Shown piece by piece: positions 28,813 through 53,287 of a DNA stretch of 64,000 nucleotides. Positions within the stretch are counted from its first letter, which is position 1, and every line of letters starts with the position of its first letter. Below the pieces are notes generated by a model. It was not told the DNA's origin and made no database searches. It saw only the letters and a list, made by a program, of their open reading frames with translations. The position numbers and the translations under genes are program-made. Origin of the DNA: Candidatus Bathyarchaeota archaeon (GTDB taxonomy: Archaea > Thermoproteota > Bathyarchaeia > TCS64); the NCBI GenBank assembly GCA_026014815.1, contig JAOZHP010000088.1, forward strand, positions 1 to 64,000, read 5' to 3'.

Positions 28813-29697
28813 CTAGGACTCGGGTCGCCTGAACTGGCTGACGTACCTGTTGATTAGCTCTGGCTGCCTCAGCACCATTATGACGTTTACGTTTATCATC
28901 TCACCGTACATGGCTCCTAGTCTCTCGTCTTCCTTTTGTAATAGTTCATGCCATGTGCTCCCCTTGTTTATCGCTTTCTCGCAGTCAGTCTTACATGGAT
29001 AAAAGTAGCCTATTGGGTACACATGGGGGTCCACCTTCTCCTCGGCTTTGATTACATCCGCCAGCTGTTTTGCCGCTCTTACCTCGACGTTTATTCCCTT
29101 TACCCTGTCATTCGCATACCTGCTGATACAGCAATCAGGGTAGCCTAGCAATTTGCCCATGCGTTTGATCCACTTGGCGTTGAACTCCTCAGGGTACGCG
29201 AACTGGATACCTCCGAGATTCGGATCAGGTCTTCTCTGGGTTTTGACTCTAAGCTTTTCCCTTTCCTTTTGAAGCTTCCTCAGCTCCTTTCTTGACCCTC
29301 CGTCCTTGAACAAGTATACCTCGTGGACTGTGGGTCTGACCTTAGTTTGCTCTGATTTTAAGCCCAGTCTGTCGCTCCACAGGTAGAGTGCCTTGTAGGG
29401 CTCGGACTCCTCCACCACCTCCTCGAACTGTTTCTCCAGAAGACTCTTGATAGCATTGATGGCTAACGCCTTGCCCCTTGGGTCCTTGATTCCTTGAAGC
29501 TTCATCATATGTGGTTTAACATGTTCATCGATGCGTTGCCCCATCTCGACTCCTCCCGGAAACTCTGCTGGGATTGTGATCTGACTACACTCCCTGAGCC
29601 CCAGATAGGTCAGAAGAAGCTGCTCTACCTTCACTCTTGGCATTATCCTCTCGTCATGAAGAAAATCGTCGAGTAATTGTTTCTCCAAGTCTCTCAT
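28813..29697 (-). CDS. DUF483-like protein
   Basis: KLLGYPDCCISRYANDRVKG motif; directly upstream of and co-oriented with the PRTase-like gene. Confidence 0.65.
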   Translation of the reverse strand: MRDLEKQLLDDFLHDERIMPRVKVEQLLLTYLGLRECSQITIPAEFPGGVEMGQRIDEHVKPHMMKLQGIKDPRGKALAINAIKSLLEKQFEEVVEESEPYKALYLWSDRLGLKSEQTKVRPTVHEVYLFKDGGSRKELRKLQKEREKLRVKTQRRPDPNLGGIQFAYPEEFNAKWIKRMGKLLGYPDCCISRYANDRVKGINVEVRAAKQLADVIKAEEKVDPHVYPIGYFYPCKTDCEKAINKGSTWHELLQKEDERLGAMYGEMINVNVIMVLRQPELINRYVSQFRRPES

Positions 29698-29764: not shown

Positions 29765-30400
29765 TTACATTGGGATTAATTTCAGGACCTGTAGGAAGAA
29801 CTGAGCTCTGCCCGTCAGCATCGTGAATCTGAACAGCACTGTGTTACCGAAGTACGCTCCCAGAGCGATCATGATGAACAAACGTCCAATCCTTGTCGGT
29901 GCCTTGAGCGGTCCAGTGTGCTCGAATGTCAGCAAGAAGTACATCATGCTGCATATTAGACCCACGGCGATGTACAGGAAGTTAATCCATGCCATCATGC
30001 CTCCATCCGAGGGCGCAGTTATCGTGCTGATAATTGCGTCCTGAATGTTAGGTGCAATGGTTCCTCTGATACCGAGGCCGAAGCCTGCTCCTACAAGTAG
30101 GGCGACTGGATATCTACTAACCCACCGATATTCAGGTATCAACATCGTGTAGATCATGATACCAAGTATCAGCGGCACGATCATCAGGAAATCTCCACCC
30201 ATCATTGGGGTGATGCAGATCCTTACCACGTTGCTAAAGTTAGTAACAACGTTAATCGCCAACATCATGCCGATGAACATGTACTCAGCTGTCCTGTACA
30301 CAGGATTCTCCTTGTACAGAGGATAGCTGTAGATCATTAGCATCAGGACCCAGCCGGTCCAGAGACCGATTACGTCCCACATAGCTGTTGGATATGCCAT
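29765..30400 (-). CDS. Multi-TM membrane protein D1 of duplicated cluster
   Basis: About 6 hydrophobic segments; shares SRYPVALLVGAGFGLGIRG and LGAYFGNTVLFRF with ORF at 49021. Confidence 0.85.
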   Translation of the reverse strand: MAYPTAMWDVIGLWTGWVLMLMIYSYPLYKENPVYRTAEYMFIGMMLAINVVTNFSNVVRICITPMMGGDFLMIVPLILGIMIYTMLIPEYRWVSRYPVALLVGAGFGLGIRGTIAPNIQDAIISTITAPSDGGMMAWINFLYIAVGLICSMMYFLLTFEHTGPLKAPTRIGRLFIMIALGAYFGNTVLFRFTMLTGRAQFFLQVLKLIPM

Positions 30401-31228
30401 TTAGCTTTCCCTCCTCTCTGTTAGTACGCCAATGTTTGCCAGTATTACCGCGATTACGATTAGTAAGTGACTTACGCTGATGCTGTCCATAGATGTGGTT
30501 GCTTCACCTAGTTCATTGATGAGGATCTCTAGCTCTGCTCCTCCTCTGCTACCGACGCTCATTCCGAAGTAGTTGCCAGCCAGCCATAGCGGGATTCCCG
30601 TAGAGCCAAGCATCGCAATACCTATCTGAGCCAGTCTAGTTCCGTGAGGTCCCTGCCACTGTCGCAGGAAGTATGAACCCCAGTCACCAGTGTCAGAGGA
30701 AAGCACTCCATCGATGTCCCGCCAACCGTTAACATCCGCCATCATCGGAATGTCATCCAAATCCGTACCGAAGTAGTCGTTAGGATAGACGCTCCGCATG
30801 TCAGACGCCAGCTGTGTGATGGCTGCCTCTCCGCCGGTAATGTAACCGAGGAAGACATAGTCCTCACCATAAACTTTGCCTGCAAAGTCAGCGGCTGCTG
30901 TTGTCTGAAGCTTGTTGTATGTAAGATGCACGTCGTAGTGGGGACCCATGAAGATTATCTTCGCGTCTTCCCTGAAGAGAGCCTTGGTACAGACGGTTAC
31001 ACCGGGGTGGCACTCTGACCACGCGCTTACACCGTATCCGAAGTTTATGATCCATACATCTCCTGGCTCCACGTTGTCACCGGTGATTCCATCGTAAAGA
31101 TCACGAGTGTTCTCTGCGACCGAAAGCGGGAACCCGATGGGGCTTAGGAATGGAACCATCAACGCGATGAAGAGTATCCAGTAGAATACTCTACGGTCGA
31201 TGTTCGCTAGTTTCGCCGTGAAACTCAT
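30401..31228 (-). CDS. Membrane-anchored protein C1: N- and C-terminal TM helices flanking an alpha/beta domain
   Basis: GDVWIINFGYGVSAW...AKIIFMGPHYD...VYGEDYVFLGYITGGEAAITQLASDMRSVYPNDYFGTDLDDIPMMADVNGW; same motifs in ORF 49642. Confidence 0.85.
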   Translation of the reverse strand: MSFTAKLANIDRRVFYWILFIALMVPFLSPIGFPLSVAENTRDLYDGITGDNVEPGDVWIINFGYGVSAWSECHPGVTVCTKALFREDAKIIFMGPHYDVHLTYNKLQTTAAADFAGKVYGEDYVFLGYITGGEAAITQLASDMRSVYPNDYFGTDLDDIPMMADVNGWRDIDGVLSSDTGDWGSYFLRQWQGPHGTRLAQIGIAMLGSTGIPLWLAGNYFGMSVGSRGGAELEILINELGEATTSMDSISVSHLLIVIAVILANIGVLTERRES

Positions 31229-31878
31229 TCTTCTCCGCCTCCAGCGTAGAATCCACGCTCTTTACCTAGCAGGGCTCTGAACCCATACGCGATCATTCCG
31301 AGAGACCCAACCATCGCGAATGTTCTCATCCCCGGGATCTGCCCAGTGAATCTGAACCACTCGCCGATAGTTGCGAATCCAGGCCAGATAGCCTCGCCTA
31401 CCGGAGCGTTGCTCAGGATGACGAAGCACCCAGCGATCAGCATGAGTGCTGCATCGATGTTTCTTGCCCTGAAGGATCTATATGCGGCTGAGAAGATATA
31501 GAAACCAGTGATCGGGTATAGCGTAGCACCTAGTGGCGTGTACATGTTGTTGAATAACCAGTTGTAGATGGCATTATCAGTCATCTGTCCCGTAGCTGCA
31601 TATCCTGCTAAACCAGTTAGCAGCATGATTGCGAACGTCGCAACCAGGAGAGCGCTAAACCCATAGTTCGATCGCTTCCTCTGTATGTTCATGGCACTCT
31701 GTCTTAAGAGTTGAACTGCTCCTAAACCTAGAGAGATGTTGAAGACGATAACCGCCCATGTCCTGACTGTCTCAGCGAAGCCCCAGCCATCCACGAAGAA
31801 GAAGTAATCAACAAACATGATTACTGTAACTAATCCTGTGAAAGCGTAAACGACCTCACGTTTAAGTATTTGTGACAT
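31225..31878 (-). CDS. Multi-TM membrane protein B1 of duplicated cluster
   Basis: About 6 TM; IYNWLFNNMYTPLGATLYPITGFYIFSAAYRSFRARNIDAALMLIAGCFVILSNAP matches ORF 50481 (YSWIYNAIYLPLGATMYSSLAFYMAYGSYKVLRARNFDAALLFITAVLVIMGNTP). Confidence 0.85.
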   Translation of the reverse strand: MSQILKREVVYAFTGLVTVIMFVDYFFFVDGWGFAETVRTWAVIVFNISLGLGAVQLLRQSAMNIQRKRSNYGFSALLVATFAIMLLTGLAGYAATGQMTDNAIYNWLFNNMYTPLGATLYPITGFYIFSAAYRSFRARNIDAALMLIAGCFVILSNAPVGEAIWPGFATIGEWFRFTGQIPGMRTFAMVGSLGMIAYGFRALLGKERGFYAGGGEE

Positions 31879-31884
31879 TTTTCA

Positions 31885-32667
31885 TTACACCCCTAATAGA
31901 TCCGCGATTGCTGTGATACCCACTGCGCCAAGCAAGAAACCGATCCCTATTATCGCTACGAGAAGTAGCTTGATCATGTCTTCTCCCTTGATCGAGCCCA
32001 GCATGTCTGGGTCTTTACTTACAGCGGCACCGGCAGCGAACAACTCTTCGGCTAATAGCATGTAGTCACATGTGGCTACGAGGAAAGGCATCTGGTGTGT
32101 GTTGTTGGTACCTCCTATCTGCATAGCCTCGATCGCGTTTCCAGCCTCACCGATAACGACGGCCTCGTAATAGAATCCGCCCATCAATATGTTAGAGGCA
32201 GGCCTCTCCCTCTGGAAGTAACCCAGTACACCGCTTAGGTAAGCGGACTGACCAGAGATGAAAGTAATATCCTCGACATTGAACTCCTCTGGTTTTCCTT
32301 GCGAGAGGTACGCGGTCCTCATGACCTCCTCGACTAGCGGCAGTGCGTCTGCTAGAGGACAGAATGCAGCGAGCCGCACACCTGCCTTAACACACTCCTC
32401 TGTCAAGTGACCGAGTATGCTTATGCTAGCTAGTATCTGTGGTCCCTGTGTTGCATCGTTGAGTCCACCACCAATTCCCACTGTCCAGAAGACAGGTTTC
32501 CCCATCTCTGCCGCCCTCCCTACTGCTTCAGGGATTGCGTCCATAGCTGGCATTGATCTGATAGTGTACTCTTTCTTTTTGCTAATTGACATGTAATAAT
32601 ACATCACCGCGAAGGTGAGGATCATTAGTACGAAAGTCATCAGTCGTCCTTCTACTATAATTGCCAT
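31885..32667 (-). CDS. DUF6754-like membrane protein A1 of duplicated cluster
   Basis: TM-soluble-TM layout; MDAIPEAVGRAAEMGKPVFWTVGIGG ... MQIGGTNNTHQMPFLVATCDYMLLAEELFAAGAAVSKDPDMLGSIKGEDM; clear homolog of ORF 51123. Confidence 0.82.
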   Translation of the reverse strand: MAIIVEGRLMTFVLMILTFAVMYYYMSISKKKEYTIRSMPAMDAIPEAVGRAAEMGKPVFWTVGIGGGLNDATQGPQILASISILGHLTEECVKAGVRLAAFCPLADALPLVEEVMRTAYLSQGKPEEFNVEDITFISGQSAYLSGVLGYFQRERPASNILMGGFYYEAVVIGEAGNAIEAMQIGGTNNTHQMPFLVATCDYMLLAEELFAAGAAVSKDPDMLGSIKGEDMIKLLLVAIIGIGFLLGAVGITAIADLLGV

Positions 32668-33003
32668 TGTTTTTCCTTCCGTGTTGTTAGCCTAATCCAA
32701 AGAGCCGCACAGCGTACGTTCTCACGTAGCACAATGCACAGGCTCAGTGAATGATAGACCTAAATTTCTATCACTGTTCTGTATATATAATACTTTATTT
32801 CAAATACACGTATTTTCTGCTAATATTTGTGCATAATTATACGTTTAGTATAAAAGTTGAGAGTATTGGTTGACATTTAGATTCGTCCAACATAGATTTT
32901 TTTATACAATGTTGGTTGTTACTGTAATCCATTGAGAGTGACCCCGAGATAATCTAGCTGCATCGATGATCATCAATTAAATCAGTTATAACATACTTTT
33001 CTA

Positions 33004-33399
33004 TTAGAATGGAAGATACTTTCTCCAGCCCTTCCTTTCATCGCTTGTTTTTCCTTCCTCTTCTTTCTTCACTGATTTTTTTAATTCTTTCTCTTTGGGC
33101 TCTATTCCATTTGCAGCTATCTCCTCAAGCCTCTGTATCAGTCTCTCAACGTTGCTAGACTCTTGAAAGAATGTGAAGACTTTTTCACCTTTGATGATAG
33201 CGTTATCTCCAAACAGTGGTAACAAGGGCGTGAAGAAGACCTGACCCATGCTGGCCCCAATCCTACTTATGGGCTTGTAGCTTTCTATGAAAAGGATAGC
33301 CGCTGTCTCTAACCCATACTTGTAGAATTCCCTTGCAACCCACTCGATAATCTCCTCTTCCTCTTCAGGCGTAATCTCTTCATCTATAAACATGGTCAA
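33004..33399 (-). CDS. Small acidic cytoplasmic protein E1
   Basis: YGLETAAILFIESYKPISRIGASMGQVFFTPLLPLFGDNAIIKGEKVFTFFQESSNVERLIQRLEEI...ERKGWRKYLPF; homologous to ORF 48103. Confidence 0.82.
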   Translation of the reverse strand: MTMFIDEEITPEEEEEIIEWVAREFYKYGLETAAILFIESYKPISRIGASMGQVFFTPLLPLFGDNAIIKGEKVFTFFQESSNVERLIQRLEEIAANGIEPKEKELKKSVKKEEEGKTSDERKGWRKYLPF

Positions 33400-33434
33400 T
33401 CACAGGTGCTAAGATTTCTACAACCATTAAGGAT

Positions 33435-33908
33435 TTAAGAACTTGCTTCAAGCGTCTGCCGACGTTTTTGAAGTCGTCTCCGGATTATCATATAACCTCC
33501 AACTACGCTACCAGCGACGAAGCATATCAGAAGTGTAACGGCGAGGCTCAGTGTCGGTTCGCTGGCCATCGTGAACATAATGATGAGGCTACCAATCCAG
33601 CTGTATCCCGCAGTCCTCAACCCTACATTCAAGTGCTTAGTATCCGCTCTTTTACCCACCTGGCTCGCGGAGAAGTATCCAGCGAACACGTAGACGAGGA
33701 AACTGGCGTCAGTTAACAGTCGTATGGGTAGTTGACTGGTGACGCCTCTGAACAGGCTAAGTGCCTGCATCCACACCCATACGATGCCGTTGGCTAGCAT
33801 CGCGCCTGCTAGGTAGTCGGTCTGTGTGGGGATCTTGGGTCCCTTCTCTTGAGGTGTCTCTTCCTGCTCGTCTTGAGGCCCCGGTCCCTCTGGGTTCTCT
33901 GCTTCCAT
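33435..33908 (-). CDS. Four-TM membrane protein F1
   Basis: TDYLAGAMLANGIVWVW ... GSVVGGYMIIRRRLQK; homologous to ORF 48558. Confidence 0.8.
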   Translation of the reverse strand: MEAENPEGPGPQDEQEETPQEKGPKIPTQTDYLAGAMLANGIVWVWMQALSLFRGVTSQLPIRLLTDASFLVYVFAGYFSASQVGKRADTKHLNVGLRTAGYSWIGSLIIMFTMASEPTLSLAVTLLICFVAGSVVGGYMIIRRRLQKRRQTLEASS

Positions 33909-42839: not shown

Positions 42840-43673
42840 GTGTGTGTTCTGAGTAAAGTTGCCGTCATCAAGGGTGAGCGAGGCGCTGAGCCTGTTTACA
42901 CTGCTTTCGATCTGGTCCCATACAAAGATGCGTTAAAGGACTGGGATCAAGTTCTAATCAAAGTCAACTTTATCACTACGAGGAACTGGGAGACGGGGGC
43001 CACCACTGACCCTGTGGTGGTTGAAGCTATCATCAACCGTGTTCGTGACTTGGGGAAGGAGGTCATCGTGGTTGAGTCAGACGCCCAGACCACCAACGCC
43101 TCCAAGGCTGTCGTAATGAGTGGTATGCAGAAGATGCTTGACAGAGTAGGAGTAGAGTTCGTTAACATGCGGCATGTGGACGAGAAGGTGGAGCTGCCTG
43201 TGCCTGATGGGAGGGTGTTGAAGAAGATTAAGGTAGCCAAGATAGCATCCGAGTCAGCCATCGTTAGCGCCGCGAAGCTCAAGACCCACATGAACACAGC
43301 GGTGACGCTTGGGATGAAGAACATGTTCGGGATGCTTACCACAAAGTGGAAGGGCAAGTTTCACCTACAGGGCATGCACAAGGTCATCCACGACATCAAC
43401 AGGACTCTGCCTCCTCAATTGACAGTCATCGACGGCTTCATCGCAATGGAGGGCAGGGGACCCGTACACGGTAAGCCCGTGAAGATGGACACAATAATAG
43501 CTAGCACTGACCCGGTTGCCGCTGACGCCACTGCTTCACGTATTATGGGTTTCAACCCAGAGCGCATAGATCACATCAAGTGGGCGTACCAGTCTGGAAT
43601 CGGTGAAATTAATGACATCGAGGTTCTGGGTGACGGCGTGGACGCTGTGAAGCGTGTTTTTGAGCGGCTATAG
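42840..43673 (+). CDS. DUF362 domain-containing protein (paralog 2)
   Basis: SKVAVIKGERGAEPVYTAFDLVPYKDAL...TDPVVVEAIINRVRDLGKEVIVVESD; near-collinear with ORF 10687. Confidence 0.82.
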   Translation: MCVLSKVAVIKGERGAEPVYTAFDLVPYKDALKDWDQVLIKVNFITTRNWETGATTDPVVVEAIINRVRDLGKEVIVVESDAQTTNASKAVVMSGMQKMLDRVGVEFVNMRHVDEKVELPVPDGRVLKKIKVAKIASESAIVSAAKLKTHMNTAVTLGMKNMFGMLTTKWKGKFHLQGMHKVIHDINRTLPPQLTVIDGFIAMEGRGPVHGKPVKMDTIIASTDPVAADATASRIMGFNPERIDHIKWAYQSGIGEINDIEVLGDGVDAVKRVFERL

Positions 43674-43702
43674 TTTCTCATAGCTGCGGTTTTGATCAAA
43701 AA

Positions 43703-44938
43703 TTAGGTGTTGGAGGCGTTTGCCTTGGATATCTGCATGGCTGCTGTGGGGTATAGAGCGACTAAGGCATCATCGCTGTGGGTTTCCTCAAGCATCTTCC
43801 GGGCTTTCTGCCATGACTTGACCCATTGGCTTCCCTCACCATAATAATATTCATCCATCTTGGCTATCTGTGGGGTGACGCAGATGACTCTGTTCATTTT
43901 CCATGGTTTCTTGATGTATGTGGTCTTGGTCCATCCTCTGCCCCCAAAGTCTGTTCCGAACCTGCCGTTATAGTGGTGGACCCTGCATCCTTCGGGTGTG
44001 TAGAGGAGGAACACCATGTCTCCTCCTTCACGAACCGAGTCGTTGAGGAGGTGGTACGCCTTGTAACCCTCGTTGGCCATGGGGTACCCGTTGCCTATGA
44101 CTATGTCGGCGTCCTTCACAATCTCTGTGGCGTAGTGGCGTCGTGCTATCTTCACGCCCTCCCTGTGGGCGTCAACCACATCACCGCATACGAGGTCAGC
44201 CACGTCGCAGTCAGCGTTCATGAACGCGTTGATCACGAAATCAACTCCTGCTGCTCTTGCTGCTTCCTCAGAATCGAGGCGTCTGACGTTTTCCAAGACC
44301 TTTCCGGGTCCTGTGCCGTCTCTGATCCTGTGGTTATGGGTGATGCTGTCGATGCCTGCTACTCCGGGGAGGATCATCTTGCTACCGCCTCCGAACCCGT
44401 ACCCGAAGTGAGGCATCATGACTCCAAGGGTGATTTTGAGGTCGCAGTTCATCACTTCAGTGTTGATGTGGATAGGTGTCCCGTGGCTTGTCTCCCCAAG
44501 GTCGACGAGGTTCTCGTAGCAGTTATGGTTGAAAACCAGATACCTCTTAGGGGTCTCTGGGCCTAGTTTCTTCTGGAAATCGAAGAGAAGCCTTCCACCG
44601 TGGGCTCCGGTAGCCATCATGAAGACTATTTGGTCGTCGTTTAGGCCTCCCTTGTGTAGTTCATTGAGGACCGCGGGTAACATCTGGTATTGTTTGGTTG
44701 GCCTGGTCATGTCGTCTATTACGATAACGCATCTCTGTTTTCCCTTGGCGAGGTCGCTTAGCTGCGGCGTGCCAACAGGGTTCTGGAGTTTTTCCGCAAA
44801 CTCCCTGTCCGAGAGTTTTGGTGAGTCGTGACCAATCATCTTCTGCTCCTTGACTGTCCATCTCTCCGGGAAGCCGAGTTTCTCAGGTTTCCATCCATAG
44901 AACTCCCATGCGGGTACGTCGAAAGTGTTCATGGTCAA
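43703..44938 (-). CDS. LarA-like (lactate racemase domain/DUF2088) protein
   Basis: CVIVIDDMTRPTKQYQMLPAVLNEL ... MMATGAHGG ... VFNHNCYENLVDLGETSHGTPIHINTEVMNCDLKITLGVMMPHFGYGFGGGSKMILPGVAG. Confidence 0.9.
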   Translation of the reverse strand: MTMNTFDVPAWEFYGWKPEKLGFPERWTVKEQKMIGHDSPKLSDREFAEKLQNPVGTPQLSDLAKGKQRCVIVIDDMTRPTKQYQMLPAVLNELHKGGLNDDQIVFMMATGAHGGRLLFDFQKKLGPETPKRYLVFNHNCYENLVDLGETSHGTPIHINTEVMNCDLKITLGVMMPHFGYGFGGGSKMILPGVAGIDSITHNHRIRDGTGPGKVLENVRRLDSEEAARAAGVDFVINAFMNADCDVADLVCGDVVDAHREGVKIARRHYATEIVKDADIVIGNGYPMANEGYKAYHLLNDSVREGGDMVFLLYTPEGCRVHHYNGRFGTDFGGRGWTKTTYIKKPWKMNRVICVTPQIAKMDEYYYGEGSQWVKSWQKARKMLEETHSDDALVALYPTAAMQISKANASNT

Positions 44939-45024: not shown

Positions 45025-46197
45025 TTACTCCTCTATGATCTCGACGTTGGCTCGTGGCACCATGACCACTTCGCCGCCATCTAGCTCGATGTTCACCACG
45101 CGGACCATGGACTCGGACTCAAGCCTCTGAAGCTCTACCGGGAGGCTGTGTACCTTCCCTATGGCTCCAAAGTATGGCTGCCTGATGATTCTGATGGGTG
45201 TACCGGCGATCATGCCACTGCTTAGCGCCTCCGACTCCTCGTCCTCTTGGATTTCGTGGGGAATGATGATCTCGGGTCTGAGTACCCCTGCCCTGATCTG
45301 AGTAGCGCCGTTAACCGCGGCCTGTTTTCCCTCAAATTCCTTGAGTAGGTCAAAGGTTCTCTGACTCATACTCATCTTCCCGAATCCCTCGGTGATGATG
45401 ATTGTTAAACCAACCTCCTCGGTACCTGTAATGGCGACACCGATTTCTTCTCCAGTGAAGGTTGTGAGATCGTCGTGTCTGACTCCGCCGCTGACGATGG
45501 CTGAGACCCCAATGTCCGCTGCTTTTCTTAGGGCATCGAGGGTGACCTGGCTTCCGCCAATGAGGACACTGCCTTTGTGATCAGCGGTAATCATGTCAGC
45601 ATCTAGGATTTCGGTGTTGTTTTTGGCTATGACGTGTAGGGGGCCGTGTACCTCGCCGCCTATGCCGAAGATGCCCTGAATGAAGGCGGCGCTAGTCTCG
45701 ATGACCGCGCCTTCCCGGGGCATGACCTCCACAACTGTCCCCGGGATATATGCGTCTACCTCTACTGGGATTGGTACGCCTCTGATGATCACCTGTCCGG
45801 TGATATCACTGATACTCTCAATGGTTCCATCTACAGGTGATTCGACGCGTTTCTTGATGAGACCGAAGAGGGCGCTGTAATACCCTATGAGTTCACCTTT
45901 CTCAACTGTTTCTCCCAGTTGTTTCGTCATGTACCTTGGGACATCCTCTGGCTCAAGACCGAGGATCATGCCCATCTTGATGATATGTGGGTCTCCGCTG
46001 ATCTCTGTTCTGGCCACGATCTCATTGTACTCTATCTTGTCGCCGACCTTGAGGAAAACCTCTCCCATGATGGGGAGTCTTCTCGTCTTGTCGACTGTCA
46101 TGGTTCTCTTGACTTTCAAGCCGGGTGTGTAGGCGTGAGCCTCCTCTGTCTCGGCTTCCTCTCCGTTGGTTATGTTTTCAATTGCTTTGTCTACCAT
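45025..46197 (-). CDS. Barrel-sandwich (lipoyl/RnfC-like) protein with KOW-like C-terminus, MutL-associated
   Basis: RRLPIMGEVFLKVGDKIEYNEIVART...VESPVDGTIESISDITGQVIIRG; C-term MIAGTPIRIIRQPYFGAIGKVHSLPVELQRLESESMVRVVNIELDGGEVVMVPRANVEIIEE. Confidence 0.7.
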   Translation of the reverse strand: MVDKAIENITNGEEAETEEAHAYTPGLKVKRTMTVDKTRRLPIMGEVFLKVGDKIEYNEIVARTEISGDPHIIKMGMILGLEPEDVPRYMTKQLGETVEKGELIGYYSALFGLIKKRVESPVDGTIESISDITGQVIIRGVPIPVEVDAYIPGTVVEVMPREGAVIETSAAFIQGIFGIGGEVHGPLHVIAKNNTEILDADMITADHKGSVLIGGSQVTLDALRKAADIGVSAIVSGGVRHDDLTTFTGEEIGVAITGTEEVGLTIIITEGFGKMSMSQRTFDLLKEFEGKQAAVNGATQIRAGVLRPEIIIPHEIQEDEESEALSSGMIAGTPIRIIRQPYFGAIGKVHSLPVELQRLESESMVRVVNIELDGGEVVMVPRANVEIIEE

Positions 46198-48032
46198 TAG
46201 ATCAACGCCTCCAGCTTATTCTCATTATATAACTCAAGTGACTTGAACCATTTCAGTAGGAGTTCTTTTCTTGCTGTCTCTTCCTCGGGTAGGTATATTG
46301 GTCTCCCACGTGCGTCTATCATTACACCGGCTACTCCGCCTGCGACGGTTGCCTCCCGTTCCTTACCGGGGCCTGCCCCTACATCGAACTCCTTTTCGGG
46401 AGTGATGTGGACTTTTGCCTCCTCGTCTGGGCCAAGCTTCATAAGCTTGATCTCGCCGAAGGTCATCTCCTCTTTAACTATCTTTCCATCGGGCATAGTC
46501 ATCTCGATTGTCATGCAGGGGTCGCCAAACTTCCCATTACCTGTTGCAGCGATGTTGGTTCCCATCCTGACGAGGCAGTCCTTGTCGAAGATGTTCCACG
46601 CCGCTTCACGGTAGACTGTGCTCAGTACGCCGATGTGTGGCATCATGAATACGCTGTCCTGGTACATCCTTGTGATGCCTTCAGGTTGCCACGCGTCCGT
46701 GAGGATGAACATGCTCTGGACACGTCGCGGTGCATGGCTTAAAAGCCCGCCTGTCCCTGCGCATATGGCGATATCCATCATCTTTACGTAGCTATCCTCG
46801 ACGGCTTGCTCGAACATGTCGCTGATGGTTCGCTCCAGTTGTACGCCCTTAAGCCTTGTAGCTATGGTTCTGTGATGTTGCAGGCCGAGTCGTAGCGCTT
46901 CACGTGCTACGCTGTGCTCCACTATGAGGTCCTCCAGTGTTTGGGGGATGGTGGTAGGCCTGATCATCTTATTCATGAGGCGGCTTGCCACTTCCTCCTT
47001 GTCTAAGTTGAAGGGTATCCACCGCATTATGTTCTCGATGCCGGCCTCCTTCATGACGTTGGTCACGCTGTAGCTCATTCCCAGGTTGGCTGAGACGCTT
47101 CTGACGAACCTTCCGTCAACAATTGAGTACACGTTTGTGGTTGCCCCGCCGAGGCCTACACCCAGGACATTCATTTTGTAGGAGTTGGAGATGAGTTGCA
47201 TGGCCATTCCCTCGCCTGCGGGAGTTGGCATGATGTCTACGTCTGTCCACTTCATCAGCCGTGTGTATCCCGGTGCGTGGCTCATGACGTGCTCCATGAA
47301 GAGCTCGTGGACAGCTCGCCTAGCTGGCTCAGTGTTCTCCTGCTCTAGTACGGGCCTGATGTTGTCCACCATGTCGAGTGCGAAGCCCTCTTTGAGTAGC
47401 TCCTCGATCTGAGGACGGAGTGTCTTGTTGCCTGCGTATACGATGGGTAGCTGATAGGCGACTCCAAGTCTGGGCTTTGGCTCGGCGGCCTTGATGAGCT
47501 CAGCGATCTCCATGACATGGCTGCTTGCTCCCCCGTCGGTGCCACCTGCCATGAGTATCATGTCAGGTCTGAGGCTCCTGATCATCCTGATCTTTTGGTA
47601 GACCTGCCTGCCGTCGTCCCTGGCGATGACGTCCATGACGATGGCTCCTGCGCCGAGTGCCGCTCTGTTGGCGCTCGCAGCGGTCATTGACTTGATTAGT
47701 CCACTGACCATCATCTGCAGTCCACCACCGGCGCTGCTAGTAGTGACGTATAGATCAACTCCCTTCTCGCCGTCGTAGGGCAGGATTAGTCCGCTGCCAT
47801 CAGGGGCTAGAAGCTTGTGCCCAGTCAGTTCCTCGACCTCTCGCACTGCGTTCTGAACCCCCATTGTAACGTCCTCGTAGGGGGCTTCTACTGTGGTTGG
47901 TGCTTCTCCTGCTACTAGGAAACGCCATTCACCATCTTTGAGGTGGAAGAGTCGGGCTTTGGTGGTTGTGCTTCCGACATCGGTTGCAATAATGTATTGC
48001 ATCTCTTCTGTAGACTTTTTGAGGGTAGCCAT
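46197..48032 (-). CDS. Glutamate mutase L/MutL-like ASKHA-fold ATPase
   Basis: IIATDVGSTTTKARLFHL phosphate-1; MILMAGGTDGGASSHVMEIAELIKAAEPKPRLGVAYQLPIVYAGNKTLRPQIEELL; VLGVGLGGATTNVYSIVDG. Confidence 0.92.
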   Translation of the reverse strand: MATLKKSTEEMQYIIATDVGSTTTKARLFHLKDGEWRFLVAGEAPTTVEAPYEDVTMGVQNAVREVEELTGHKLLAPDGSGLILPYDGEKGVDLYVTTSSAGGGLQMMVSGLIKSMTAASANRAALGAGAIVMDVIARDDGRQVYQKIRMIRSLRPDMILMAGGTDGGASSHVMEIAELIKAAEPKPRLGVAYQLPIVYAGNKTLRPQIEELLKEGFALDMVDNIRPVLEQENTEPARRAVHELFMEHVMSHAPGYTRLMKWTDVDIMPTPAGEGMAMQLISNSYKMNVLGVGLGGATTNVYSIVDGRFVRSVSANLGMSYSVTNVMKEAGIENIMRWIPFNLDKEEVASRLMNKMIRPTTIPQTLEDLIVEHSVAREALRLGLQHHRTIATRLKGVQLERTISDMFEQAVEDSYVKMMDIAICAGTGGLLSHAPRRVQSMFILTDAWQPEGITRMYQDSVFMMPHIGVLSTVYREAAWNIFDKDCLVRMGTNIAATGNGKFGDPCMTIEMTMPDGKIVKEEMTFGEIKLMKLGPDEEAKVHITPEKEFDVGAGPGKEREATVAGGVAGVMIDARGRPIYLPEEETARKELLLKWFKSLELYNENKLEALI

Positions 48033-48102
48033 ATTGATTCAATATTGGTCGCAGCCACATACGAATAAGGTTTTCTGATATATTCGATTAAAATGAACTC
48101 GA

Positions 48103-48522
48103 TTAAAACGGAAAGAAGCGGCGCCAGCCTTTTCGCTCTGTTGTATTCTCTGTCGGTACTTTTTCTGGTTCCTCTACAGGCTCTGTGGTCTCCCCCACGG
48201 GTTCCTCTTCTTCGGACTCGTACTCACCTTGAGCCATGGCTTCAAGGAGATCGATGAGCTTGTCAATGTTTTTCCTGTCCTCAAACACTAGAATGAGTTT
48301 CTCTCCGAGGAGGTTAAAGTCTGGGCCGAGGGCGGGCATGAAGGGTGAAAGTGTTAATCGGCTTAGTTCTCCGCCTACGTAGACCATGGGTTTTATGCTC
48401 TCCAAGGTCATGATGGCTACGGTCTCCATCCCATAGAGGTGGATTCGCTCTGCAGTCTTTCGAAGTATCTCCTCTATCTCTTCCTCGGGTACCTCTATGT
48501 CTCCGGTTTGGAATCTACTCAT
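48103..48522 (-). CDS. Small acidic cytoplasmic protein E2
   Basis: YGMETVAIMTLESIKPMVYVGGELSRLTLSPFMPALGPDFNLLGEKLILVFEDRKNIDKLIDLLEAM...ERKGWRRFFPF; homolog of ORF 33004. Confidence 0.82.
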   Translation of the reverse strand: MSRFQTGDIEVPEEEIEEILRKTAERIHLYGMETVAIMTLESIKPMVYVGGELSRLTLSPFMPALGPDFNLLGEKLILVFEDRKNIDKLIDLLEAMAQGEYESEEEEPVGETTEPVEEPEKVPTENTTERKGWRRFFPF

Positions 48523-48557
48523 CTCGATTAGTATTCGGATGTGGTCGATTTAAAGTA

Positions 48558-48956
48558 TTATACTTCCACTTCCCTCTTAGGCTTCCGCGGTTTGAGCCGC
48601 TGTCTAGTAGTGATGTATCCCGATGTGAATCCTCCCAACAGGAAAAAAACCAGAAGTACACCGAAGAAACTAGCTTGGTTTCCCTGTGTGAACGCGAGAA
48701 GGCTCACGACTGTAAAGATCCATGATATTATGGCGCTTTTCAACCCGGTTGGTAGCTGATTTCTGCTGGTTCGTTTACAGATCATGCCTGAAGGTAAGAG
48801 ACCGCCGAGATAGAAGAAGACGAATGCTAGTATCCATGGGGCGTTATAGAGTGTCTTGACCCTGATCCAGAAATAAACTATACCATACGACAGCACGGCC
48901 CCTGCCATGTAGTCTGTTGTGCTCGGTTTTTTCGACTGGTCGCTCAAGTGTATCAT
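48558..48956 (-). CDS. Four-TM membrane protein F2
   Basis: TDYMAGAVLSYGIVYFW ... GGFTSGYITTRQRLK; homolog of ORF 33435. Confidence 0.8.
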   Translation of the reverse strand: MIHLSDQSKKPSTTDYMAGAVLSYGIVYFWIRVKTLYNAPWILAFVFFYLGGLLPSGMICKRTSRNQLPTGLKSAIISWIFTVVSLLAFTQGNQASFFGVLLVFFLLGGFTSGYITTRQRLKPRKPKREVEV

Positions 48957-49020
48957 TTATGTGAGGTTTGCTCTGCATAAGAGTTTTAATATGAATAAAA
49001 AAGGGGGATAGAAGTTTCCA

Positions 49021-49641
49021 TTAGATGATTTGTAACCATTCCCTCAACAGGAAGATAATTCTGCCTTGGTACATTCCGAATCTGCTCATGACAGTGTTAC
49101 CGAAGCTGGCTCCGAAAGCTAGTAGCATCATCCAGCGCCCGATCTTTGGCACTATCCCGATGGCGCCCTCATGTATCTTTTCCTGCGTGAAGATGAAGTG
49201 ACTGATTGAAGTTACTACACCAACGAAGGTGATGAGAGCGTTGACTGTGCCTAAAGCATCTGATTTTATCAGTGGTGACGCTGTGGCGGCTACCTGTACA
49301 ATGAAGTCGCTGTGGATGGCTGCTCTGATACTGATCCCTATGCCGTTGCCTACAAGGAAGGCGATGGGGTATCTGTATAGCCAGTAGTAGTCTCTGTGGA
49401 ATCTCGCGTATAGCAGAATCCCTAGCAGGAAGGCGACGCTGTATATCATCTCCCCCTGCATTATGTGGGTCCAGCCGTAGTCTCTGATGTTCTTGACGCC
49501 CATTACTATGGTGTGACCAGCTGCGACGCCGATGAACGTGTTCTCGGCGAACTTAAACACAACGTTGTCTCTGAAAGCGTAGCTTGTTGCGGCTATCGTG
49601 AAGAAGGCTGCTATCCATATCTGTGGATCTACTGATACCAT
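49021..49641 (-). CDS. Multi-TM membrane protein D2
   Basis: LYRYPIAFLVGNGIGISIRAAI and LLAFGASFGNTVMSRFGMYQGRIIFLLREWL match ORF 29765. Confidence 0.85.
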   Translation of the reverse strand: MVSVDPQIWIAAFFTIAATSYAFRDNVVFKFAENTFIGVAAGHTIVMGVKNIRDYGWTHIMQGEMIYSVAFLLGILLYARFHRDYYWLYRYPIAFLVGNGIGISIRAAIHSDFIVQVAATASPLIKSDALGTVNALITFVGVVTSISHFIFTQEKIHEGAIGIVPKIGRWMMLLAFGASFGNTVMSRFGMYQGRIIFLLREWLQII

Positions 49642-50478
49642 TTAGCTCGCCTCCCCTTTGCCTCTTGTCATCCAGAACGAGACGTTCCCGATCAGAATGA
49701 AGATTAGTACTAGTGCCTGTGTGAAGCTCAGAATGTCGCTACTGACGATTGCGTCTCCGGGGTGACCCGTGAGGAACTCTAGGTCAGCGGCACCCTTAAT
49801 GCCGTCCATGATTCCCAGTATTTGTCCCGAGTCATAGTAGGGCTTGATGCTTGTCGTCATCATGCTTAGGCAGCCTCCGAGTACGTCTGCATTGTACTGG
49901 CTGTAGGCTTGGTAGACCCAGCCCTCAGCTGTACCTCCTGCAGTTGTCATGTAAGCTACTAGGTCAAAGTCATCTGCACCGTTAACATTGTCCATGATTG
50001 ATAGGCTGTCTACTGATGTGCCTTCATAGTCAACAGATACGAGAGCCTTGAGGTCTCCAAGCACTCCTGCCATGGCTGTCTGGCCGCCGGCGATGTAACC
50101 GAGGAATACATAGTCTTCACCGTAGACTGCACCATAGTTTTGCTCAGGTTTGACACCTTCCATGACCAATGGATACATCATTGAACCCTCAAGGGCTGTA
50201 GCCATCATCACTATTTTGAGATCTTTCTCAAACATCTGGTGGAAGGCCGCGATGTTTCCCGGGCCAAGGCTTGGGTAGCCTCCTGAACCGTAGCCGACGT
50301 CGAAGAGGACAACTGAGCCCGCCGGAAGTGCATCAACAGTATTGTACCATGCTCTAGACATGTCTCCTGTAAAAAGAGGAAGACCCAGAGGGTTCATGGC
50401 AGGTATTATCATAGCTATTAGGACTAGACCCATGACTATCTCACGGGGAAGTGATGTCATTTTTTCCCATATTGACAT
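49642..50478 (-). CDS. Membrane-anchored alpha/beta-domain protein C2
   Basis: Start at Met 50478 (MSIWEKMTSLPREIVMGLVLIAMIIPAMNPLGLP); AVYGEDYVFLGYIAGGQTAMAGVLGDLKALVSVDYEGTSVDSLSIMDNVNG matches ORF 30401. Confidence 0.85.
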   Translation of the reverse strand: MSIWEKMTSLPREIVMGLVLIAMIIPAMNPLGLPLFTGDMSRAWYNTVDALPAGSVVLFDVGYGSGGYPSLGPGNIAAFHQMFEKDLKIVMMATALEGSMMYPLVMEGVKPEQNYGAVYGEDYVFLGYIAGGQTAMAGVLGDLKALVSVDYEGTSVDSLSIMDNVNGADDFDLVAYMTTAGGTAEGWVYQAYSQYNADVLGGCLSMMTTSIKPYYDSGQILGIMDGIKGAADLEFLTGHPGDAIVSSDILSFTQALVLIFILIGNVSFWMTRGKGEAS

Positions 50479-50480
50479 TT

Positions 50481-51116
50481 TTATCGCCTCCCTAGATAGC
50501 CTGTCTCCATTCCGAGCAGTGTCCTGATTCCAAGTACTACTGCTCCCATACCAATGCCTATACGGATACCTCTGTATGCTCCGCTTACGATGGGACCAAA
50601 TATCCACTCACGTGTATAGAAGAGTCCCGGGAACGTAGCGGCGAGGGCGGGTGTGTTGCCCATTATGACTAGTACAGCTGTGATGAACAATAGAGCTGCA
50701 TCAAAGTTTCTCGCTCGTAGCACTTTGTAAGAACCATAAGCCATGTAGAACGCCAAGCTACTGTACATCGTTGCGCCTAGAGGCAGATAGATTGCGTTGT
50801 AGATCCAAGAATATGTTGGACCCGCATCGTATTGACCTGTTCCTAATCCAACGACAATGAACATAGCCATCATTAACAAGAGCCACCCACTGAACATCCA
50901 ATCAGTGCCTCCACTACGTTGACTTATTCGTTTACCGTGGACACGTAACAGGTTGACTGCTCCGAGGCCGAGAGCGAAGCCTTGTATGACGACGCCCCAG
51001 TTCTTGATTAAGGTGAACGTGTCTGTGATTACCTGTACTCCTGTGTAGTAGTCGAGAACCGCGATGATTCCGATTAGGAACGTGATTGCTAAGGGTATAT
51101 CTCTTCTATAATCCAT
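50481..51116 (-). CDS. Multi-TM membrane protein B2
   Basis: Homologous to ORF 31225 (PLGATMYSSLAFYMAYGSYKVLRARNFDAALLF). Confidence 0.85.
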   Translation of the reverse strand: MDYRRDIPLAITFLIGIIAVLDYYTGVQVITDTFTLIKNWGVVIQGFALGLGAVNLLRVHGKRISQRSGGTDWMFSGWLLLMMAMFIVVGLGTGQYDAGPTYSWIYNAIYLPLGATMYSSLAFYMAYGSYKVLRARNFDAALLFITAVLVIMGNTPALAATFPGLFYTREWIFGPIVSGAYRGIRIGIGMGAVVLGIRTLLGMETGYLGRR

Positions 51117-51122
51117 TCATAA

Positions 51123-51905
51123 TCACCTCGATAACAACTCCGCTATTATGTTGACGCCGACACTGGCGAGTAAAGCACCTAGTATTGAGAGACCTATGGC
51201 TGCAAATTTGAACCAGTCTTGAGCTGCGATGCTACCAATCTGCTGAGGGTCACCTGAGACATATGCTCCAGCAGCGAATATCTCTTCGCCGATAAGCACG
51301 TAATCACAGAGGGCCGCGAAGAATGGTATCTGGTATGTTCTAGCTGTGCCGCCTACCTGCATTGCTCCTACCCTGTCAAAGGTCTCGGCAAACATCATTG
51401 ACTCGGCCCAGAACGGTCCAATCATGATGTTTCCCGCCGGCTTCATACGAGCCGCCATACCTATGATCCCGCTTGCCCAGGCGAACTGGGTTCCTGAGAG
51501 GTAGGGAAGTTGTTCGTCGACATCGATCTCATCTAGTTTTCCCTCTACTCTGTAAGCATCTCTCACTACCTCTATTGCGACTGGCATGACGTCTACTCTT
51601 GCCTGTGGGGCATAGAGTTTGGCGCCAAGTTTCGCGCAGAGGCCTGAGACGTAGCTTAGTATGCTGAGGCCTGCGATTGTCTGTGTTGCGTATATGTCAG
51701 TGAACTGGCCCATGCCGATGATGTCGAAGACTGGGCGCCCCATCTCAACGGAGCGGCCGATGACTTCCTCAATGGCGTCTAGGCCAGCAATTCGTCGTAT
51801 CTTAATCTTTCCTTCCTTACCCATACCGATAGCGATGTAGGTCGCTACCCAGGTGAGGATGAAAGCAATTAATGGAATTATTCTTCCTTCTGTTAGTAAT
51901 GCCAT
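51123..51905 (-). CDS. DUF6754-like membrane protein A2
   Basis: LDAIEEVIGRSVEMGRPVFDIIGMGQF ... MQVGGTARTYQIPFFAALCDYVLIGEEIFAAGAYVSGDPQQIGSIAAQDWFKFA matches ORF 31885. Confidence 0.82.
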   Translation of the reverse strand: MALLTEGRIIPLIAFILTWVATYIAIGMGKEGKIKIRRIAGLDAIEEVIGRSVEMGRPVFDIIGMGQFTDIYATQTIAGLSILSYVSGLCAKLGAKLYAPQARVDVMPVAIEVVRDAYRVEGKLDEIDVDEQLPYLSGTQFAWASGIIGMAARMKPAGNIMIGPFWAESMMFAETFDRVGAMQVGGTARTYQIPFFAALCDYVLIGEEIFAAGAYVSGDPQQIGSIAAQDWFKFAAIGLSILGALLASVGVNIIAELLSR

Positions 51906-52360: not shown

Positions 52361-52750
52361 ATGAAGAGCGATACCAAGGAAAAGTTTCAGGTGTACTTCG
52401 CGGGTGCTTCATTGGCTTTCGGGGTTCCTTTCTTTGTCGGGGAGATACTGGGTCTCATCATGGGGTCGTCGCCTGTGACTGATAGCTTCAAGGATTTGTA
52501 TTCATCGCTTTTCGTGACGCTTCACTTGGTGGGAGGGTTGCTGGGGGGGTATCTTGTCGCCAGACGTCTTGGTGAGGAAAAGAGTCCGTTACGGGCTGGT
52601 GTGGTGACGGGGGTCATGGCTTACCTGTTTCAGCAGATAGTTTACACCATTTTTTATGGGGCTGGAGCCATCGGTGATATCTATACTATGGTTGGGCTCA
52701 TAGGCGGATCGGTAGCAGGTGTACTTATCTTCAAGTCAATGACTCGATGA
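52361..52750 (+). CDS. Four-TM membrane protein G (tandem paralog 1)
   Basis: KEKFQVYFAGASLAFGVPFFVGEILGLIMGSSP...GGYLVARR...LRAGVVTGVMAYLFQQIVYTIFYGAGAI. Confidence 0.75.
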   Translation: MKSDTKEKFQVYFAGASLAFGVPFFVGEILGLIMGSSPVTDSFKDLYSSLFVTLHLVGGLLGGYLVARRLGEEKSPLRAGVVTGVMAYLFQQIVYTIFYGAGAIGDIYTMVGLIGGSVAGVLIFKSMTR

Positions 52751-52816
52751 TCCGATAAAACGGGTCGGTTACCCTCTGTTATATACTCGTCTAGAACATT
52801 CATAACCTGATTAGAG

Positions 52817-53287
52817 TTGGGTCAGAATAACAGGGATCGGCTAAGACTCTACTTCTCAGGCGCTTCAATCGCTGTAGGCATTCCTTTCATGTTGCTAGAG
52901 GTTTTTGGGATGATTGTGGGGCACTCACCTGGTTCAACTGAGTTTCAGTCTCAGTACTGGATGCTCTTCACTGGTTCCAACTTTTTCTTTGGTGCTGTCG
53001 CTGGGTTCTTGGTTGCTAGAAGGTCCAGCATTGAACCTATGCAGGTTGGTGTTACTACTGGTGTACTTGCTTACCTCCTACAGCAGGTTGTTTACCTTGT
53101 CTATTATGCGGGGGCTATTCCCAATGACCTTAACCTTACGATCGCTTTGGTGGGGGGTACCATTGTTGGGTCGGGTGCATACCGTTACAAGGCTCGTATT
53201 GATGCTCTGAACGAAACCATAGATACTGATATTAAGCTTGATAAGGAGCAGAGCGGCGAAGAAGAAACGCTTCCCACCGAGGGTTAA
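52817..53287 (+). CDS. Four-TM membrane protein H (tandem paralog 2)
   Basis: RDRLRLYFSGASIAVGIPFMLLEVFGMIVGHSPGS...AGFLVARR...MQVGVTTGVLAYLLQQVVYLVYYAGAI; non-ATG start possible. Confidence 0.75.
   Translation: MGQNNRDRLRLYFSGASIAVGIPFMLLEVFGMIVGHSPGSTEFQSQYWMLFTGSNFFFGAVAGFLVARRSSIEPMQVGVTTGVLAYLLQQVVYLVYYAGAIPNDLNLTIALVGGTIVGSGAYRYKARIDALNETIDTDIKLDKEQSGEEETLPTEG

Follow-up and report, generated by a model that had tools for sequence, protein, structure and literature searches.

A widespread DUF6754-containing membrane system accompanied by a long MutL-like protein in archaea and bacteria

In a 64,000-nucleotide stretch of Bathyarchaeota DNA, hereafter the window, the gene for a MutL/GlmL-like protein of the kind labelled 'glutamate mutase L' stands in a row of genes for membrane proteins, which raises the question of whether this protein (M) serves a B12-dependent mutase or belongs with its membrane neighbours. 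The window lies on contig C115 in a draft genome of 3.09 Mb that is 93% complete, and on the minus strand at 45025-51905 we confirmed eight genes in the order A-B-C-D-F-E-M-K (Table 1); judged by protein A, the closest named relatives are Bathyarchaeota metagenome-assembled genomes (MAGs; 73-85% identity). An initial annotation had described eight co-oriented genes with gaps of 70 nucleotides (nt) or less and a stop codon of M overlapping the start of K, all of which is present: the gaps from A to M are 6, 2, 0, 64, 35 and 70 nt, and M and K share 1 nt (TAATG). C starts at an ATG, the open reading frame lister having picked a GTG farther upstream, within B. We found that A-B-C-D, with E, M and K, is a real cellular system, widespread across many bacterial and archaeal phyla and of undescribed function, and that the glutamate mutase label is wrong for M.

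A gene set conserved across bacterial and archaeal phyla

We surveyed the loci of relatives with hidden Markov model (HMM) searches; gene calls were mechanical, and the majority of the genomes surveyed are draft MAGs. The order A-B-C-D is near-invariant, with 113 adjacent A-B pairs, 106 B-C pairs and 100 C-D pairs, counts which include some loci sampled twice. E, M and K accompany A-D in Bathyarchaeota, Methanomethylicota, Bacillota, Planctomycetota, Riflebacteria, Zixibacteria, Fermentibacteria and Neomarinimicrobiota, and operons of the form E-M-K-A-B-C-D or A-B-C-D-E-M-K recur in Riflebacteria, Planctomycetota, Zixibacteria, Fermentibacteria/Aegiribacteria, Neomarinimicrobiota and Bacillota. 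In a close relative (G202, locus L050) M-K lies between two A-B-C-D modules, and some bacterial loci carry three such modules in tandem (L119, L138, L144). At least 578 relatives of A were found in one genome scan. As a side observation, arrays of two or three modules in one operon (L119, L138, L144, L127, L083) may build hetero-oligomeric complexes.

Co-occurrence was assessed in three phyla. Among 301 Thermoproteota genomes, with thresholds of >100 bits for DUF6754 (the family of A), >300 bits for full-length MutL and >450 bits for K, each of the three proteins was found in the same seven (G000, G202, G062, G133, G157, G217 and G247); the coincidence of DUF6754 and MutL has a hypergeometric probability of 2e-14. 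Long MutL, in frames of about 560-655 amino acids (aa), was found in 14 of the 200 Bacillota genomes sampled, all 14 of which also have DUF6754 (P = 1e-19). The total for DUF6754 in this set is 16, the extra two being a genome without MutL (G330) and one with a weak DUF6754 match (G406), and none of the 62 Bacillota genomes with only a short glutamate- or ornithine-mutase MutL has DUF6754. In Planctomycetota (n = 201), 53 genomes have DUF6754, 55 have MutL and 49 have both (P = 4e-35). These P values ignore shared ancestry, and the three phyla are separate draws. In one search M was present in all 18 DUF6754-bearing genomes that it covered, in one of them (G306) as frame-broken pieces.

In the archaeal carriers modules outnumber M: there are five A genes in the genome that holds the window and three to seven in each of the six other carriers of the phylum, and usually one M. 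Among 28 archaeal modules, pairwise identity in any one of the four subunits tracks that in the others (correlations of 0.93-0.95), and thus A-D have diverged together. Of the four, A shows the highest conservation (mean identity 38-44%, versus 32-37%, between modules within one genome), as would be expected if A faces a shared partner.

The long MutL protein and its label

M matches the MutL family PF13941 over its full length (profile positions 1-450). The description of M as a GlmL/MutL-type protein is therefore upheld at the level of the family, but M falls below the NCBIfam cut-offs for GlmL/OrL (212 versus 475 bits for NF040745, and 210 versus 600 bits) and below that of TIGR01319 (138 versus 204 bits). 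In a tree of 60 proteins, all 53 long M proteins fall on one side of a branch (SH-aLRT 99), apart from the short GlmL/OrL proteins.

Short MutL proteins of the GlmL/OrL type are described as reactivation chaperones (PMC4682846). In the loci surveyed they are found beside GlmS/GlmE (L244, L245) or beside ornithine aminomutase (L184, L247, L248), and Symbiobacterium has both forms: a single short OrL belongs to an ornithine-aminomutase operon, and long M-K copies occur separately, next to C-D. The initial annotation noted that the window lacks GlmE, and a search with PF06368 gave no match in the whole of its genome. No match to the methylmalonyl-CoA mutase family (MM_CoA_mutase, PF01642) was found in the seven M-bearing archaeal genomes, that of the window included, or in G305, G310 and G311. 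Matches to the B12-binding domain (PF02310) in M-bearing archaeal genomes fall in reading frames no longer than about 660 aa, a length insufficient for an aminomutase of the kind found at L184, L247 and L248; G247 and G305 have a single match each, in frames of 541 and 481 aa. One could still suppose that M is a conventional adenosylcobalamin mutase reactivase which simply lies next to membrane genes, and both the PF13941 match and the neighbours of its short relatives would agree with this. Yet long M forms its own clade and is associated with K and DUF6754, not with mutases, while short MutLs adjoin B12 mutases, and the genome has neither a glutamate mutase nor a methylmalonyl-CoA-mutase family enzyme. 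The label is thus wrong for M, and a conventional reactivase is highly improbable; the specific identity of glutamate mutase reactivase was rejected, given the missing GlmE, the wrong clade and the sub-equivalog scores. The initial annotation had suspected that the label misleads, and had named as evidence to the contrary either glutamate mutase subunits elsewhere in the genome together with a lack of conserved MutL-DUF6754 co-occurrence, or high-confidence assignment of A-F to a known transporter or complex; we found no GlmE, very strongly conserved co-occurrence and no match of A-D to a known transporter or complex. Relabelling long M removes a false signal of B12-dependent glutamate fermentation in uncultured lineages.

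A separate observation concerns a 1233-aa protein of the Bacillota set (L246, 8306-12007, genome G391), which has a C-terminal MutL domain and an N-terminal part that looks like a B12 mutase when judged by eye; it is a possible mutase-reactivase fusion, in contrast to the M-K fusions described below.

The nucleotide site of M differs between lineages. Long M retains the phosphate-1 motif DxGSTTTKA, and the phosphate-2 motif of bacterial long M is VDIGGATTD; all six archaeal members of the window M's clade that were read, the window M among them, have GVGLGGATTN instead and so lack both acidic residues. The second M of the same genome (L067, 8575-10335) shows the converse, a degenerate phosphate-1 motif (DVNNKSTKA) and an intact phosphate-2 motif (DIGGETTD), and the two copies are possibly complementary half-dead ATPases. 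From these motifs, nucleotide binding by the window M is plausible, and ATP hydrolysis is doubtful because the acidic residues of phosphate-2 are lost, a judgement that draws on knowledge of the actin/Hsp70 family. The proposal that M is the ATPase of an A-F membrane complex is accordingly retained in part: M does belong with A-D, but F is not part of the core, an ATPase role is doubtful for this copy, and the complex itself is a predicted one.

Membrane subunits, accessory proteins and gene neighbours

As initially described, A is a DUF6754 protein, in fact a full-length member of PF20539 (243 bits versus a cut-off of 27), B and D have about six transmembrane (TM) segments each, and C is a TM-anchored alpha/beta-domain protein. 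Consensus hydropathy across many relatives gives six TM segments for B and six for D, and for A and C two segments around one domain; from charge distribution and the positive-inside rule, the domain of A is probably cytosolic and the acidic domain of C probably extracellular. Many bacterial A proteins are longer (about 365-425 aa), the three examined at sequence level start with a signal-like segment, and two scanned members have a weak fibronectin-III (FN3) match in the N-terminal extension. A also has highly conserved carboxylates.

Table 1. Genes of the eight-gene block and of a second module in the window
Feature	Position	Strand	Evidence
A: DUF6754 protein, 260 aa; TM, predicted cytosolic Rossmann-like domain, TM	51123..51905	-	PF20539 E 3.6e-72; AlphaFold2 (AF2) pLDDT 93.6; 2 TM by consensus hydropathy
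B: 6-TM membrane protein, 211 aa	50481..51116	-	consensus hydropathy; conserved second gene of module
C: TM-anchored, predicted extracytoplasmic Rossmann-like domain, 278 aa	49642..50478	-	AF2 pLDDT 95.1; domain net charge -19, 2 TM; conserved third gene
D: 6-TM membrane protein, 206 aa	49021..49641	-	consensus hydropathy; conserved fourth gene
F: small membrane protein, 132 aa	48558..48956	-	3 clear TM segments; HMM matches in archaeal loci only
E: small soluble protein, 139 aa, conserved accessory of M-K / A-D operons	48103..48522	-	alignment; E-M adjacency 15x, D-E 6x
M: long MutL/GlmL-like ASKHA (actin-fold) protein, 611 aa	46197..48032	-	PF13941 E 2.4e-116; own clade SH-aLRT 99
K: barrel-sandwich + alpha/beta + KOW-like protein, 390 aa	45025..46197	-	alignment; weak GcvH/NusG/Spt5-KOW matches; constant neighbour of long M
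Second A (DUF6754)	31885..32667	-	E 6e-67
Second B	31225..31878	-	E 6e-78
Second C	30401..31228	-	E 3e-105
Second D	29765..30400	-	E 8e-79
Second E	33004..33399	-	E 2e-69
Second F	33435..33908	-	E 3e-54

AF2 predicts Rossmann-like structures for A and C with high confidence; Foldseek comparison of both with the PDB gave nothing at E <= 1e-3, and generic Rossmann-like matches only above that value. B, C, D, E, F and K match no Pfam or NCBIfam family above threshold, and profile searches of the PDB gave no sequence match for B-D, none credible for A and nothing of use for E or M. DUF6754 is thus the sole family match of A-D, which have no sequence or fold relative among known transporter, respiratory or secretion complexes in Pfam, NCBIfam or the PDB, and in which no cofactor motif was found. 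Neither A and C (hhalign probability 28%) nor B and D (4%) could be accepted as clear homologues of one another. A literature search limited to open-licence PubMed Central papers returned nothing relevant for DUF6754, PF20539 or PF13941, and the 'uncharacterized membrane proteins' of an Effluviviacota paper proved to be EetAB and so unrelated. None of the eight proteins matches an anti-phage defence system in PADLOC-DB, for which reason a defence role was rejected.

F had been described as a 4-TM protein; it is a membrane protein, but a single-sequence scan shows three clear segments, so that '4-TM' is approximate. Its HMM matches are confined to archaeal loci. F is an archaeal accessory, and the conserved core comprises A-B-C-D, E, M and K. 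K bears out its description as a barrel-sandwich and KOW-like protein through weak similarity to both kinds of domain (Biotin_lipoyl, GcvH and the NusG insert for the former, Spt5 for the latter), and it alone gave any similarity, again weak, in the PDB profile searches. K is linked to the system as tightly as M, since M precedes K in 36 adjacencies in the surveyed loci, the order K-M was found in none, and M and K are fused in two genomes (L182, L183). A third copy of K in the genome (L250, 5023-6183, contig C50) is 57% identical to the window K, and no M or A-D gene was found on that contig.

The window contains a second full A-B-C-D module, overlooked by the initial annotation, which lies 11 kb away at 29765-33908 on the minus strand with its own E and F; the remaining three A modules lie elsewhere in the genome. 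A DUF483 protein (28813-29697) follows this second module, as one does the second module of L050, and the family was matched by 3 of 94 scanned neighbour genes. Divergent from the main operon, at 52361-53287 on the plus strand, are two small membrane proteins of the F family by profile, and divergent F genes similarly flank A in the Bathyarchaeota loci L069, L070 and L050. Beside K, at 42840-44938, are a DUF362 protein and a lactate-racemase-like (Lar_N) protein, the LarA-like gene being co-oriented and directly downstream.

Across loci, amidohydrolases are enriched among adjacent same-strand genes (8 of 94, versus fewer than 2 of 94 among genes of the same loci at distances above 4.5 kb), for example in L045, L082 and L128, and in L067 one follows M-K. 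Single cases include aminotransferases, peptidases of families M55, M81, M28 and S9, gamma-glutamyltranspeptidase and a LarA-like protein. The archaeal A-D classes variously adjoin a PycB-like protein with a biotin carrier, acyl-CoA dehydrogenase, a class-III aminotransferase, an Lrp ligand-binding domain, or S9, M28 or DUF885 proteins. The amidohydrolase, peptidase and aminotransferase neighbours suggest amino-acid- or amide-type substrates. In the Phycisphaerae loci L099 and L115 the system immediately precedes genes of fatty-acid biosynthesis (PlsX, FabH, FabD and FabG-like, identified by eye and partly with Pfam).

Candidate functions and comparison with known systems

Gene content, gene order, co-inheritance, the separate clade of M and the M-K fusions were all computed, and from them we infer a physical A-D complex on which M-K docks through A. 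The explanation that we favour as a whole, tentatively and with less than even confidence, is that A-D form one membrane complex with which a cytosolic M-K pair works in the uptake of solutes. B and D would form its membrane core, while C and A would carry different Rossmann-like domains, on the outside of the cell and in the cytosol respectively; M, as an actin-fold nucleotide-binding protein, and K would serve A-D from the cytosol, most probably by binding to A, which is the best conserved of the subunits, and E, joined by F in archaea, would assist. Because several diverged modules lie beside different catabolic genes and archaea usually have one M, the modules may be uptake units specific for separate substrates that use a common cytosolic partner, with one M-K pair shared in archaea by up to seven of them. 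M would then gate or energise the complex through nucleotide binding, rather than reactivate a B12 enzyme. The function that we consider the likeliest, though at less than even odds, is the import of organic solutes, for instance amides, amino-acid derivatives or peptides, and it is doubtful that the system represents a new class of primary membrane transport machine in which an ASKHA protein and a barrel-sandwich partner, not an ABC-type ATPase, drive or gate substrate-specific four-subunit modules. Several observations weigh against uptake: Pfam and PDB searches found no relatives of B and D among known transporters; the amidohydrolase signal comes from few loci; bacterial flanks are mixed, with no conserved pathway found and often housekeeping genes (fab genes, aroK/aroB, ExbB/ExbD); archaeal M lacks the phosphate-2 Asp; and the ratio of A to M is reversed in some Bacillota (one A to three or four long M in G301 and G374), a poor fit to a shared energiser.

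Some of these same observations would suit an envelope-organising or membrane-remodelling machine, with actin-fold M as a cytosolic scaffold and C and the FN3 region of bacterial A in contact with the envelope. M matches an actin/ASKHA-type family, and its archaeal form keeps phosphate-1 without the phosphate-2 Asp, as a nucleotide-binding scaffold might; the bacterial A extension with its weak FN3 match would lie outside the cell, and bacterial flanks are often non-catabolic. A structural machine would however not be expected to have five to seven full, diverged A-D paralogues per genome, as is the case in several archaea, where some of them lie near different catabolic enzymes, and Pfam and PDB searches found no similarity to pilus, secretion or division proteins; we regard this explanation as rather unlikely. 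A comparably low probability attaches to a membrane-bound enzyme or energy-coupling complex, for example for decarboxylation or acyl-CoA oxidation, of which M-K would be the activase or reactivase in the manner of GlmL, EutA or the diol-dehydratase reactivase. M does belong to the superfamily of EutA and GlmL, A has its conserved carboxylates, and the neighbours of one archaeal A-D class include a biotin carrier and a PycB-like carboxyltransferase subunit, those of another acyl-CoA dehydrogenase and iron-sulphur genes, but such neighbours vary from class to class and A-D have yielded neither a cofactor motif nor a PDB relative. The system is common, and its components (A, B, C, D, E, M, K) are defined well enough for cloning, purification and testing; it may turn out to be a transport, energy-coupling or envelope machine of a new kind.

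Compared with known systems, long M resembles GlmL/OrL in its full-length PF13941 match and in the phosphate-1, phosphate-2 and adenosine-type ASKHA motifs that most bacterial long M proteins share with them; it differs in its length (about 600-650 aa with a C-terminal extension, versus about 455-480 aa), its clade, the K that follows it and its co-occurrence with DUF6754, whereas the short form lies beside GlmS/GlmE or OraE and lacks K. PF20539 (DUF6754), an uncharacterised family, is here set in a defined B-C-D / E-M-K system. In energy-coupling factor (ECF) transporters a shared energising unit serves many substrate modules, and the present system is analogous, though not homologous, in having several membrane modules per genome and few copies of a cytosolic nucleotide-binding pair; A-D and M-K, however, include no ABC ATPase and show no similarity to S or T components, and M has an actin fold. 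The scaffolds PilM, FtsA and GspL likewise offer an analogy only, that of an actin-fold cytosolic protein genetically tied to membrane proteins, from which the system described here differs in that A-D have no detected similarity to pilus, secretion or division proteins and M belongs to the MutL/EutA branch.

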